This document shows positions 1,168 through 13,820 of a stretch of 64,000 nt of DNA, one piece after another. The DNA is from a virus: IMG/VR virus record IMGVR_UViG_3300032799_000664, positions 1 through 64,000 of that record; one strand, given 5' to 3'. Each line of letters starts with the position of its first letter. The stretch's first letter is position 1. Made by a program: the position numbers and the translations under genes. The notes beneath the pieces were generated by a model. That model was not told the DNA's origin and searched no databases. It saw only the letters and a program-made list of their open reading frames with translations.

Positions 1168-1494
1168 CTATTTCTCGAACACGTCGCGGTACGGCCCCAG
1201 CTTCTTCAGCTGGCGCAACCCCTCCACGCTCACGACACAGCCGCTGTCGAGGTCATCGATGAACAGCTCGCTCTGCCAGCGGAACGGGTCGCAGTAACAG
1301 CAGTGGTCACTGCGACCGCCGAAGAACGCCGCGCCGTTCGTGTTGGGACAGGCGAAGACGGTGAAGCTCGTCGTGGAGCCCGGCACCAGGAACGTCACCC
1401 GGTCACAGGAGATGCACCCCGCGCTGTGCGAAGGATGGTCCCGGTAGTGGCCGGCGAAGCACGACAGGCTGAGCGGGCAGCGGTCGCAGGTCAT
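1168..1494 (-). CDS. Cys-rich paralogue family, member 1
   Basis: A 108-aa protein starting with the family signature MTCDRCPLSLSCFAG (C-x2-C-P-x4-C). A second pair (CISC) follows, then a single Cys-Pro (FACP), then CCYC followed by DPFRW, giving eight or more cysteines in the family order. This suggests two metal sites in a small soluble domain. It is the leftmost member, about 5 kb from the next, and it borders the AT-rich leader. Function unknown. Confidence 0.75.
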   Translation of the reverse strand: MTCDRCPLSLSCFAGHYRDHPSHSAGCISCDRVTFLVPGSTTSFTVFACPNTNGAAFFGGRSDHCCYCDPFRWQSELFIDDLDSGCVVSVEGLRQLKKLGPYRDVFEK

Positions 1495-5325: not shown

Positions 5326-5359
5326 AACACGCGTCGAGAGGGTCGACGCGCGTTGAGGT

Positions 5360-5575
5360 TCAGAAGCGCAGTGGCCGCCAGGGCTCGAGGTAGGGCACTT
5401 CGTGGAGTTCGCGGGGCTCATCTTCGCAGTGCCCTTCGTCGAGGCCATACTGCATGGCCTCTATCCAGGTGAGGGCATCGCTGCGCGACTCCCCGTAGGC
5501 CAGTCGATGATGCTGCAGCGGGCTGCCGAGATGATCGTAGCCGTAGCGGAAAAGAGGCACTTGATAGTAGGGCAT
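5360..5575 (-). CDS. Small acidic protein, unknown function
   Basis: A 71-aa protein starting MPYYQVPLFRYGYDHLG and rich in aromatic and acidic residues; the stretch SDALTWIEAMQYG may be helical. The start at 5575 lies next to the stop of the upstream gene at 5577. No known family recognised. Confidence 0.55.
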   Translation of the reverse strand: MPYYQVPLFRYGYDHLGSPLQHHRLAYGESRSDALTWIEAMQYGLDEGHCEDEPRELHEVPYLEPWRPLRF

Positions 5576-5576
5576 C

Positions 5577-5969
5577 TCAGCTGCCCTGGCAGTTGTTGCA
5601 GCGTTCCCAACCGTCGTACTCGGTGTTGAAGCCATCGGTGGCGCCGCACCAGCTGCATCCCGCCACTCCGAAGAAGGCGTTGCACACCTGGCCGAAGTGC
5701 TCGAATGGCATCGTCTCGGGATCGACGCCCGCCGCGTTGCAGTACGCGATGTAGAACTCGATGGCGTTGTCGGGGTACTTCGCCACTTCGGAGTGGGCGA
5801 ACCAGTTGGCGAAGTTGGGCCGCAGTGGCACTTCGCGCAGCACCCACGCTGCGCCCATGAGTTTCTGGAACTCTCGGTACGCCTTCTCGAGATCGTCGGG
5901 GACGGGGGTCGCCAACGGAATCGAGTGCGGACCCGCGTGGAAGAAGTGCTTCAGCAATCGCACCTTCAT
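5577..5969 (-). CDS. Protein with C-terminal zinc ribbon, unknown function
   Basis: A 130-aa protein. The N-terminal two thirds has a mixed helical character (EKAYREFQKLMGAAWV). The C-terminus has CSWC and CNNC pairs about 15 residues apart, a zinc-ribbon arrangement. The start at ATG 5969 follows AAAGGAGAAC. An upstream extension of the frame runs into hairpin-forming DNA and is not used. A GGTATCAGGAAG element lies 15 bases upstream. Confidence 0.6.
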   Translation of the reverse strand: MKVRLLKHFFHAGPHSIPLATPVPDDLEKAYREFQKLMGAAWVLREVPLRPNFANWFAHSEVAKYPDNAIEFYIAYCNAAGVDPETMPFEHFGQVCNAFFGVAGCSWCGATDGFNTEYDGWERCNNCQGS

Positions 5970-5984
5970 GGCGTTCTCCTTTCT

Positions 5985-5996
5985 CTTCCTGATACC
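5985..5996 (-). promoter_or_regulatory. Promoter-like GGTATCAGGAAG element
   Basis: It reads TTTTTAGGTATCAGGAAG on the minus strand, directly before the ribosome-binding site of the 5969 gene. The 12-base core is identical to the one at 14097-14108. Confidence 0.4.
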
Positions 5997-6002
5997 TAAA
6001 AA

Positions 6003-6590
6003 GCCGCGCGTCTTCGGCCCTCTCGTTCCAAAGGCGCGCGGCACCGCCACCCCGCGGTGAAAGGAGAAGCCCGCGGGGTAGCGGCCCTGCAACCGTTCCT
6101 GCGTTAGCGCGTAGCAGGAGCTCCTGCGGCCGGAAGCGGCAGCCCACTGGAGGCCGAAGGAGCTCCGCGCGGAGCGTTATAGGGCGCCCGACTCGAACCG
6201 CGGACCTCCACAGGAGGTCCGTAGGTTCGAGCCGGCGGACTTCAGCGCTGGCGGCGAAGCCAGAAGCTGCTGAAGTCCGAGCCCGGGCATGTCGTCAGGC
6301 AAGCGTGCAGCCGCCTGGTCGCTGTAGCAGCGACTGAGTGCGCACTTCAGGCACTCACGAACGGTGTGCGTTCCTACGTTTCCGACGGGTGACCCGGATG
6401 TAGAACGTGCTGCTCCTGCGTTGGTTGGCGCCCGTGAGACCGAGTCGGCGAGAGGCAGTACCCTCGCCGACTGGGTCTCGCAGGCAACCAGCCGGACTGG
6501 ATCTGGGGGTAGCGTAGCGGTCCCCCAGATCGAGTCTGGACTCGGCATCACGACGACGTCATGGTCGCCGCGTCGACGTGGCGTCGACAC
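6003..6590. other. Array of about ten long, sequence-diverse hairpins (array 1)
   Basis: The 717 bases between the genes starting at 5969 and ending at 6687 contain no gene but a run of inverted repeats. The main stems are 6003-6010/6035-6042 (8 bp); 6044-6057/6071-6084 (4+9 bp); 6117-6131/6152-6166 (8+4 bp); 6188-6209/6213-6235 (3+8+9 bp); 6236-6252/6259-6279 (11+5 bp); 6318-6324/6328-6334 (7 bp); 6335-6341/6351-6357 (7 bp); 6420-6452/6463-6492 (8+6+10 bp); 6492-6509/6522-6539 (7+10 bp); and 6572-6578/6582-6588 (7 bp). Stems differ in sequence but share a plan: outer arm, one- to three-base interruption, inner arm of 8-10 bp, short loop. No tRNA fold fits. A structured non-coding RNA or a DNA-level element are both possible. 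Confidence 0.6.
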
Positions 6591-6686
6591 CGTCTTGGTG
6601 ATGCTCGAGCAGCGTTGTCGTTGTCAGCGATGTCCATCGCCCACGCCCGCTCCGCGCTGCGTGGTCTGATGATCATCTCCGGTGAT

Positions 6687-6959
6687 TCAAGGCAGTACTA
6701 TGGGCCGTTGCCGCGACCGGGCATAGGCCGCGGGGTCACACTCGGGACAGGTCCACAGTTCATCGTACCAAGCTGATGTGGCAGTCCACGGGCCGTTCGG
6801 TGGACAGGTCAGCATGTAAGGCATCAGCTTCGTTTTGCGACGTTCAGCGATTGGCAGAAAGATGACACCTCGACCGCAACCACCTTGGCAGTAAGTGAAG
6901 CTGTGCAGAACTTCGCCGGCGAAGCAGGTGAGCGACAGCGGGCACTGGTCACAGGTCAT
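6687..6959 (-). CDS. Cys-rich paralogue family, member 2
   Basis: A 90-aa protein beginning MTCDQCPLSLTCFAG. A glycine-rich pair follows (CQGGCGRG), then LTCPP, and a last pair CPEC with DPAAY. This matches the family order of eight cysteines. The gene stands immediately upstream of hairpin array 1 and seven bases after the 6966 gene. Function unknown. Confidence 0.75.
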   Translation of the reverse strand: MTCDQCPLSLTCFAGEVLHSFTYCQGGCGRGVIFLPIAERRKTKLMPYMLTCPPNGPWTATSAWYDELWTCPECDPAAYARSRQRPIVLP

Positions 6960-7637: not shown

Positions 7638-7939
7638 TTCGCTTCTTTCTCGAAGATGCGATCCATCGTTGAGCGTTGCCCTTGGGCGCGGCACTCCTGA
7701 CAGAGCACCGAGTACTCGTAGATCTCGTGCATCGGGTTCGGCATGACGGTGACCGACCCGTACGGCAGGTGCAGTGCCCGCTCCAGCTGTGCCAGATTGC
7801 CGCAGCCATGCCGCGTCACTTGATTCCAATTCTGGTCGTAGAGCACGACACTGCCGCAGTGGTAGCAGATCCCGAGATCGAGGAGCGCGACGTGACCACT
7901 GAAGCACGGCAGCGAGATGGGGCAGCGATCACAGGTCAT
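7634..7939 (-). CDS. Cys-rich paralogue family, member 3
   Basis: A 101-aa protein. The start at ATG 7939 gives the signature MTCDRCPISLPCFSG. A pair CYHC, a lone Cys (HGCGN) and a final CQEC follow. The C-terminus is basic and helical (DRIFEKEAK), like member 1. It is coupled at both ends by four-base overlaps to its neighbours. Confidence 0.75.
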   Translation of the reverse strand: MTCDRCPISLPCFSGHVALLDLGICYHCGSVVLYDQNWNQVTRHGCGNLAQLERALHLPYGSVTVMPNPMHEIYEYSVLCQECRAQGQRSTMDRIFEKEAK

Positions 7940-10743: not shown

Positions 10744-11034
10744 CTAGGCGCTGTGCAGATCGTGGTCATCCAGGTCGAAGTACACCGTCTTGATGATGGG
10801 CACACCGCTGCGCAGGGTCTGCCGGGCACCGGACTTGCAGACAGCGCAGTGCCGAATATCTCGCGGCGAGAGGTGTGCCAATGCACTATCCAGTTGCCGC
10901 ACATTGTCGCAGATGAAGACGTTCGGTCCTGGCAGCCAGACCCGACCACAGTGGAGGCACAGCTTCACCTGCTCAGAGGCGTCGATATGACTCATGAGGC
11001 AGGTCAGCGACAGTGGGCAACGGTCACAGGTCAT
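10744..11034 (-). CDS. Cys-rich paralogue family, member 9
   Basis: A 96-aa protein starting MTCDRCPLSLTCLMS, with CLHC, a lone Cys (VFICD) and CAVC. The C-terminal third is acidic (FDLDDHDLH). The ATG overlaps the stop of member 10 by four bases. Confidence 0.75.
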   Translation of the reverse strand: MTCDRCPLSLTCLMSHIDASEQVKLCLHCGRVWLPGPNVFICDNVRQLDSALAHLSPRDIRHCAVCKSGARQTLRSGVPIIKTVYFDLDDHDLHSA

Positions 11035-11759: not shown

Positions 11760-12434
11760 CTACTCCTTGGTGAGGACTTCGATCTTGCCGACGAGGATCT
11801 CGACGCTCGCCGCCACGAACGGTTCCTCGTTCTTCTTCTGCATCTCCTGCAGCACTGCGGGCCAGTTGTCGATGATGAGCTGGTAGGTCGGCGTGGTGCC
11901 GTGGCGTTCCTTCTGGATGCGCATGAGGAGCTTCGTGACTAGCCCGCCGCACAGGTTGACGGTGAGGTCGGTCTCGCCGCGGCCGCGCTTCTCCTGCAAC
12001 GTGACCGAGAAGTCGGTGTCATCGTCGGTATTCGAATCGTCGATCAACGTGGTCAGGTCGCTGATCTTGGTGCTGCGCAACCCTTTGATGGCGCCCGGGT
12101 CGACCTTGAGCTTCTTGAGCCAGTCGACGAATTCCTTCTTGCCGTTGGTGGCGGCGGTGCACCAGTCGCCTCCACTGGACCACTTGCCGCTGCGACGGCC
12201 GTAGTGGTTCTCGCCCGGCATGTACTGCGGGTTGAGGGCACGCTGGAGCTCGATGCCCTCAGGGTACTCCACATCGGCGACCAGGTAGGTCATGCTGGTC
12301 GGCTCGAGCGCGGTGTACGCTCCGCCGGCGTACGATGCATTGCTGTCTCGGAAGATGCGCTTGATGCCGAGCTTCTGCAGCTCCTTGATGAAATCGGCGA
12401 GGCTCTGGAAGGTGATGCGGGTCACGGGGTTCAT
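11760..12434 (-). CDS. Unknown soluble protein (224 aa)
   Basis: It starts MNPVTRITFQSLADFI at ATG 12434 behind AAAGGAC. It contains a central stretch rich in Gly, Tyr and Ser (NHYGRRSGKWSSGGDW) and a well-folded-looking C-terminal half with mixed helices and strands. No family recognised. It follows hairpin array 2 and could be read through it from the collagen-like gene. Confidence 0.65.
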   Translation of the reverse strand: MNPVTRITFQSLADFIKELQKLGIKRIFRDSNASYAGGAYTALEPTSMTYLVADVEYPEGIELQRALNPQYMPGENHYGRRSGKWSSGGDWCTAATNGKKEFVDWLKKLKVDPGAIKGLRSTKISDLTTLIDDSNTDDDTDFSVTLQEKRGRGETDLTVNLCGGLVTKLLMRIQKERHGTTPTYQLIIDNWPAVLQEMQKKNEEPFVAASVEILVGKIEVLTKE

Positions 12435-12499
12435 GCGGGGTCCTTTCGTGGTGCTGCGTTGATCTGCGTGATTCTCTTCTCGCTCCTGAGTTCGTTACG

Positions 12500-12830
12500 A
12501 GCAGGCGCCTCCGGCCTGACCTCGAGATGAGGCAGCCCACATCTCGAGGTTGGCCGGAGGTCGCCAGTGAGCCGACGAGGTGCGGCCCAGATGAGGCAGC
12601 CACCTCAGAATGAGGTGGCAGCCTCATCGGGTGAGCTTGTCCCACGGGGGCAAGCTCAAGCACCGTCGATTCCTCATCTGCGAGCGTGAGCCCGCCATAG
12701 CGACGTGACGTCGCCTGCGTGCGCACGCTGTGGGCACGCTCGAGCGAGTTCTTTACGGGGTAAAGCAGAGCCGCGACGCCCGTAGCCCATGCCCACCGCC
12801 CCTCTTCCGCCGCGGTGAGCATGGACTACG
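12500..12830. other. Array of long hairpins (array 2)
   Basis: The 409 bases between genes at 12434 and 12844 hold no gene. Clear stems are 12504-12528/12541-12565 (4+9+10 bp, 12-base loop); 12586-12607/12611-12631 (3+8+8 bp, GAA loop, symmetrical AG/CA interruption); 12632-12639/12651-12658 (8 bp); 12700-12705/12709-12714 (6 bp); a 12-base palindrome at 12717-12728; and 12781-12799/12812-12830 (5+6+6 bp, 12-base loop). In the last one both mismatches are C/A on the plus strand, so they become U-G pairs in a minus-strand transcript, the direction of the surrounding genes. The 13-mer AGATGAGGCAGCC occurs in both of the first two hairpins. Confidence 0.6.
12751..12765. promoter_or_regulatory. 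Palindrome CTTTAC-GGG-GTAAAG, site 2 of 7
   Basis: A perfect 6+6 inverted repeat inside hairpin array 2, about 320 bases upstream of the 12434 start and 80 bases downstream of the collagen-like gene. It could control the start of a transcript covering the array. Confidence 0.65.
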
Positions 12831-12843
12831 TCGTCGTCCGTCA

Positions 12844-13653
12844 CTATGGGAGCACTGCGCACTGCGCGCTGGTACACACCCGACCCGGGCTGGACCAGTA
12901 GTTGTAGGCCTGGCACTGGCACCAGGCTTTCTGCGTCAGGATGAGCGGGTGCTCGGAGCTATGACTGATCAGCATCGTGTTGCGGTAGTCGGCGCCGCTG
13001 GGCGGGAATACGCGACAGTTACAACTGACCATCAGGTCAGCGGCGTTGAGGCAGTACACTGTGAGGACGCCCGGACCGGCACCGCTGGCGGGAATGTCGA
13101 CGCAACCACTGCCCGGGGCACCGTAGATGTCGTCGCGCGAGAACCCCGGGCCAGTGAGACCGATGGGTCCTTGGGGACCCGTCGGTCCCAGCGGTCCCGT
13201 CGGTCCCTGTGATCCCTGGGCGCCGGTGACGCCGGTGGCACCGGTGGCGCCGGTGGCCCCGGTGGCCCCGGTGACGCCGGTGTCGCCCTTCGGCCCAGCG
13301 GCGCCGGTGAGACCGATGGGTCCCACGGGACCCATCGGTCCCTGTGATCCCGGGGCGCCGGTGGCACCCACGGTCCCGGCGGGTCCCTGCAACCCTTGGG
13401 CGCCGGTAGCGCCGGTGGCGCCGTTGAGACCGACAGGTCCTTGCGGACCTGCCGGTCCTGTTGCTCCCGTCGGACCGGGGTCACCGACGCAGACGCAGTC
13501 GGCGCCGTTGCAGGTGACGACGATGCCACCGTCGCGGGTGGAGTTGCCCGCGTCGGTATCGGTGGGGCCGCCGGCGGTTTCACTGCCGCAGTTGGCGAAG
13601 AGGATGACCGTGAGCAGCGTCATCCAGCACTGCAGGACGTAGTTGCTGCGCAT
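12844..13653 (-). CDS. Collagen-like secreted protein, probable lipoprotein
   Basis: A 269-aa protein. A basic start, a hydrophobic stretch (residues 8-20) and FANC-GSE at 19-22 look like a lipoprotein signal with a non-standard lipobox; Cys22 would be the lipid-bearing residue. Residues 57-170 are about 38 consecutive Gly-X-Y triplets, rich in GPT, GAT and GPQ, which should form a collagen-type triple helix. The last 100 residues hold about eight cysteines and may trimerise. The signal means the protein is exported by the host, so it may alter the cell surface rather than form part of the tail. The ribosome-binding site AAAGGAG overlaps the end of the upstream small gene. Confidence 0.8.
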
Positions 13654-13667
13654 GTATAGTTCTCCTT

Positions 13668-13820
13668 TCAGCCAGTGCAGGTGAGACCGTGGCACGACGC
13701 CACAGTGATCGGTGAGGGCGGGATGACGATGATGACTTCGAGGGTGGGCTCGGCCGCCAGGCCAAAGAGCACGGCGGCCATGACCAGCGCCCACGCCAGC
13801 AGAATCGCGCGGAGGCGCAT
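13668..13820 (-). CDS. Small exported peptide (50 aa)
   Basis: Missed by size-limited gene finding. The ATG at 13820 overlaps the stop of the HTH gene by one base. Residues 1-24 form a classic signal or anchor segment ([20 protein letters not shown]), followed by a short Val/Ile/Pro stretch and two cysteines near the end (SCHGLTC). It sits between the regulator and the collagen-like gene, so the three may form one envelope-directed unit. Confidence 0.5.

Follow-up and report, generated by a model that had tools for sequence, protein, structure and literature searches.

Arrays of unrelated hairpins in a clade of large uncultured phages as a candidate class of modular RNA

What could a phage gain from a gap between two genes that is almost filled by long hairpins of differing sequence? 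The question arises at array 1 (Table 1) in the window, the 64,000-base stretch of DNA analysed here, which comprises bases 1-64000 of G000, a 130,445-base IMG/VR virus record. G000 derives from a large tailed phage; it encodes a reverse transcriptase, a tail sheath, beta-type subunits of RNA polymerase and a terminase that contains a LAGLIDADG element. The DNA of the locus has no match among deposited phages. We compared it with its one close relative, G001 (IMGVR_UViG_3300032401_000001, 197,792 bases), which is 88.8% identical over 90% of G000 and shows mosaic tracts, and with more distant relatives collected by terminase searches. The arrays are surrounded by several small genes for Cys-rich proteins (MTCDxCPxSLxCF...), which seem to be paralogues and have short DNA repeats at their starts (window 1451-1494, 6913-6959, 7901-7938, 10996-11034 and others).

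When the whole record was folded with correction for GC content, array 1 emerged as the strongest sustained outlier in the 130 kb, and dinucleotide shuffles gave z values of -13.4/-12.3 on the two strands for 5991-6620 and -8.5/-11.9 for 5975-6690. These results bear out the initial annotation, which had called the stems too long and too many for chance. Its picture of about ten long hairpins of differing sequence and of a gap nearly filled by inverted repeats is likewise correct: we count about 11 strong domains, and the array reaches ~6681, slightly beyond the 6590 first given. The two hairpins that it singled out are built exactly as described, each with one G/G mismatch and a 10-bp inner arm, and with loops of 10 and 12 nt. 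Array 2 is also among the strongest record-wide outliers (z -7.3/-9.2 on the two strands, dinucleotide shuffles), and the other strong outlier, 13081-13501, is coding and corresponds to a collagen-like repeat. In the gene for this repeat protein (window 12844-13794, minus strand) the coding DNA holds the near-perfect palindromes GACCGATGGGTCCC/GGGACCCATCGGTC.

On the minus strand, array 1 ends in a hairpin followed by TTTTT that looks like an intrinsic terminator. By eye this is the sole terminator-like fit in the array (GC-rich stem, T run; 6042-5998); a terminator scan allowing loops of up to 8 nt, a limit that the ~10-nt loop exceeds, lists none. The candidate linker repeat of array 1 is degenerate and does not rise above shuffles. 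Triloop hairpins of 17 nt (7-bp stem, loop e.g. TTA/TAA) recur in the array of G003 and in others.

Table 1. Positions of the arrays and associated features (window numbering unless another record is named)
Feature	Position	Strand	Description
Array 1	5998-6681		~11 hairpin domains in a non-coding gap; minus-strand genes 5577-5969 and 6687-6959 on either side
Hairpin	5998-6042	-	Last on the minus strand, then TTTTT; loop ~10 nt; from fold and sequence
Hairpin	6044-6084		One C/A mismatch; C-G pair at the same place in G001
Hairpin	6117-6166		Arms GGAGCTCCTGCGGCC / GGCCGAAGGAGCTCC
Two-storey hairpin	6188-6235		Outer arm of 12 bp and inner arm of 8 bp, with a small internal loop between them
Hairpin	6236-6279		Perfect 11-bp outer arm
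Triloop hairpin	6318-6334		7-bp stem; type found again in other arrays
Small hairpin	6335-6357		TGAGTGC / GCACTCA
Largest hairpin	6423-6493		G/G mismatch, 10-bp inner arm, 10-nt loop
Hairpin	6495-6536		G/G-mismatch plan as in 6423-6493; 10-bp inner arm, 12-nt loop
Long imperfect hairpin	6545-6604		Arms of ~30 nt
Imperfect hairpin	6625-6681		Right end of array 1; from fold
Candidate linker CGTTCCTGCGTT	6094-6105, 6369-6380, 6411-6422	+	Not significant alone
Array 2	12450-12835		Long two-storey hairpins; minus-strand genes 11760-12434 and 12844-13794 on either side
Terminase-side array of window phage	~79.0-79.85 kb of G000		
Retron-type reverse transcriptase	G000 69501-71069 (L005:6501-8069)	-	
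Third array	G001 101.06-101.99 kb		Four GTAGCAGACGAG-like linkers between hairpins, spaced 83-88 nt
G003 triloop hairpins	L042:5125-5141, 5353-5369, 5557-5573, 6005-6021		

Neither ARAGORN nor Rfam RF00005 detects a tRNA in the window or in the record, and there is no tmRNA either; the initial annotation had already noted that the stems do not form tRNAs. Degenerate tRNAs are ruled out as well: tRNA models match no array of the window phage or of G001, and the 34 tRNAs and the tmRNA of G001 all lie outside its arrays. Rfam yields no match in the window at gathering score, and its GOLLD, ROOL and OLE families yield none at E up to 1 in array 1 of G001 or in array 3. The sole long ORF over array 1 (137 aa, 6177-6590, minus strand) was rejected as a coding sequence, being broken in G001 by two one-base insertions; the same two insertions fall within the 6495-6536 hairpin, at opposite positions of its two arms. 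Of the 'new non-coding RNA' first suggested, the new non-coding element is supported (no tRNA, no Rfam family, a broken ORF), and its RNA nature is inferred; the RNase decoy and the DNA site, which the initial annotation also proposed, are treated below as alternatives.

Both arrays are present in G001. Array 1 is ~97% identical between the two phages and includes 326 consecutive identical nt from 6178, and array 2 is nearly 100% identical, with an exact run of 346 nt from 12457. The DNA around the arrays is ~50-85% identical; of the genes flanking array 1, the left is ~75-90% identical and the right ~50%. Stems, loops and linkers are equally invariant. Strong constraint is the simplest reading of this near-invariance, and recent recombination could account for part of it, since other tracts of 97-98% identity occur in these mosaic genomes.

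Arrays of this kind extend well beyond the close pair. In many distant relatives the large terminase gene is immediately followed by a hairpin array, which occupies the gap before a convergent gene, and the window phage has one there too. Among 62 records this gap ranges from none to ~1.3 kb; among the 47 gaps that reach 150 nt, 34 fold with z < -3, as do 27 of the 33 that reach 300 nt by our own count, with the proviso that some records are near-duplicates, and so not independent, and that gene ends were taken from open frames and not from curated genes. The array is evidently dispensable in some relatives, because the gap there shrinks to zero. Nor does such a gap follow the terminase gene of Salmonella phage Arash or Vibrio phage D181, the cultured phages whose terminases are nearest. 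Hairpins of different phages have no evident sequence similarity except between close sisters. The initial annotation had named a lack of conserved pairing in relatives, along with a lack of transcription, as what would count against its case. On pairing the outcome was otherwise: arrays 1 and 2 are nearly invariant in G001, and arrays of unrelated sequence occupy a fixed locus in distant relatives.

G001 carries its third array in the same genome region as its tmRNA and tRNA cluster. Beside the tRNA cluster, G001 (L015:5525-6400, 105.5-106.4 kb) and G005 (L054:3120-3540) have a structured stretch in common, with a paired change of GGTCGG/CCGACC to GGTTGG/CCAACC; in G001 it overlaps a weak Y-RNA-like Rfam hit, which at 31.6 bits stays below cut-off. 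A low-GC distant relative, G006, has a hairpin-rich, apparently non-coding stretch (L060:5650-6700) that overlaps a sub-threshold tRNA match (28.9 bits).

In the best arrays a hairpin of 40-100 nt alternates with a short conserved linker. YYACTTCGTTK occurs four times in the terminase-side array of G000 and G001, CAGTTCACTTGG five times in the G003 array with no copy elsewhere in the 69 kb examined, and GGYACTGCTG nine times in the L121 array, to which it is confined in the 100 kb examined. GGTACTGCT is found four times in L117/L118 and about three times in L102 and L122; the hits of a pattern scan for it were mostly single pairs, probably chance or coding, and a linker that pattern scans had proposed in L055 was set aside as a low-complexity coincidence. 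The differences between related arrays fall at these linkers: compared with L076, L077 has one extra hairpin-plus-linker module between two CTCTACTTCG repeats, and in G001 versus G000/L129 hairpins have been replaced between two intact CCCACTTCGTTT linkers. To judge from these differences, modules appear to turn over at linkers.

We then asked whether the hairpins are better understood as RNA or as DNA. By our count, the terminase sense folds better in 15 of 18 terminase-side arrays, which is consistent with RNA that contains G-U pairs; in two of them the strand difference goes beyond composition-matched shuffles (z -3.5 for L121, -3.2 for L140). For arrays 1 and 2 the strand-difference z is about +1, with nearly equal stability on both strands. 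Consensus folds of terminase-side arrays reach z of -3 to -6 against column-shuffled controls. Covariation, which the initial annotation had put forward as a check, is weakly positive: L076/L077 in the terminase sense have 12 compensatory changes versus 5.4 expected (P 0.017), and in most other tests compensatory change is weak or absent, and mostly non-significant with single-sequence folds. L092/L095/L096 gave a stronger-looking compensatory signal, which we discarded because that stretch is mostly coding, with a non-coding gap of only ~180 nt.

The reading that we prefer, to which we assign a probability of a little under two in five, is a modular RNA scaffold or sponge in which hairpins of free sequence act as spacers and linkers as putative binding sites. 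Each module would consist of a strong hairpin of free sequence, joined in the clearest arrays to a short linker that is conserved and unpaired. The arrays would most likely be transcribed, in gene leaders, in 3' untranslated regions or as separate RNAs; the hairpins would fold at once, shield the RNA and keep the regularly spaced linkers from pairing, and each copy of the linker might bind a protein or another RNA, creating a multivalent platform, sponge or scaffold. Recombination at the linkers would then allow modules to be gained, lost or swapped. With its degenerate linkers, array 1 is probably of the same kind; we count it among the linker-type arrays because it shares their hairpin plan and genome context, not a linker. 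As to a phage-encoded partner protein, we found none of general occurrence, with an RRM protein in G001 only and no RNase III in 22 records. The gene for the RRM RNA-binding protein (L015:3605-3814; G001 103605-103814) lies between the third array and the tmRNA gene (104134-104472, L015 numbering).

Several other explanations deserve consideration. The arrays might be elaborate 3'-end elements, i.e. stacked terminators, exonuclease blocks or insulators that halt (convergent) transcription, perhaps that of the phage's own multisubunit RNA polymerase. This would agree with the position of the terminase-side arrays between convergent genes, with the terminator-like hairpin and TTTTT that end array 1 on the minus strand and with the RNA polymerase beta-type subunits that the phage encodes. 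However, the genes around arrays 1 and 2 lie on the same strand, termination needs far fewer than ten hairpins, some relatives have no gap whatever, and the conserved linkers and loops would be left unexplained, so that we regard this explanation as unlikely, while taking it seriously.

Slightly harder to sustain, and in our judgement quite unlikely, is a DNA-level element: hairpins extruded from single-stranded DNA for packaging, replication or recombination, or small mobile hairpin cassettes inserting at linkers. The location beside the terminase, the insertion and swapping of whole modules at linkers and the near-equal stability of arrays 1 and 2 on both strands are all in keeping with it. 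Yet several of the terminase-side arrays fold better on one strand, a bias that RNA with G-U pairs should show; additional arrays lie far from the terminase, and in two genomes (100 kb and 69 kb examined) the clearest linkers are absent outside their arrays.

It is improbable that the arrays are msd-like hairpins copied into DNA by the retron-type reverse transcriptase of the clade. This enzyme, homologous to retron RTs, is encoded in 23 of 31 clade records, in many of them within a few kilobases of the terminase, and the arrays do consist of long mismatched hairpins; but we treat the idea as a minor rival because G005 has a terminase-side array with no RT detected and several records with an RT lack an array beside the terminase. 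Furthermore, no retron-type RNA was recognised next to the RT, and in the terminase-side arrays an AGC-like motif is confined to the strand that is less favoured. The sequence upstream of the RT in G000 and G001 is apparently conserved coding sequence, with no hairpin array seen; the genes there specify a Cys-rich protein and, as judged by eye from relatives, one that is von Willebrand A-like. Finally, the arrays could offer dsRNA to host RNase III or to a dsRNA sensor of the host, as a decoy or for processing. Stems of ~17-25 bp that are free in sequence and interrupted by small internal loops resemble RNase III sites as generally known and would suit this role, but it leaves conserved linkers or loops unexplained and no phage RNase III was found in the 22 records, and we give it little credence.

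We tentatively suggest, at rather less than an even chance, that the arrays represent a new class of modular phage RNA, built of interchangeable arbitrary hairpins and a conserved linker, with module turnover at the linkers, and located beside the terminase in large uncultured phages of a broad clade, some of which have several arrays. We found no prior description of such arrays in the open literature searched. What is new is the anatomy, namely unrelated hairpins, conserved linkers and module turnover at a fixed locus, and this novelty would fall if the arrays were stacked terminators. If they are functional RNAs, selection would act on many hairpins plus a shared linker and not on any single sequence, and sequence-based family searches would therefore miss them. 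The arrays also mark a fixed locus of hairpin module gain and loss, making turnover, transcription and ligand directly testable in a large uncultured phage clade.

Among known systems, the tRNA arrays of large phages are similar in their array form and module size (60-100 nt), but in the window phage and G001 no array is hit by tRNA models. Like the arrays, retron msr-msd elements have long hairpins with mismatches and occur alongside a retron-type RT encoded in the genome; the arrays differ in having many hairpins per locus, away from the RT, and in a presence that is not tied to it. GOLLD, ROOL and OLE are long, highly structured non-coding RNAs, some of them phage-borne (PMC12286853). Each of these has one conserved fold, whereas the arrays consist of unrelated hairpins and linkers in variable module number. 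In integrons, attC arrays are imperfect two-storey hairpins of free sequence whose modules are gained and lost at short conserved stretches, defined by RYYYAAC/GTTRRRY core sites and used together with an integrase. Two-storey free-sequence hairpins and apparent module gain and loss at conserved stretches are common to both systems, but our arrays have no cassette genes between hairpins and, by eye, their linkers misfit the attC core sites. Sponge RNAs of the CsrB/RsmZ type carry a GGA motif in their hairpin loops; in the arrays, by contrast, the conserved motif is the unpaired linker and the hairpins differ, and the likeness lies in repeated putative binding motifs displayed along a chain of hairpins.
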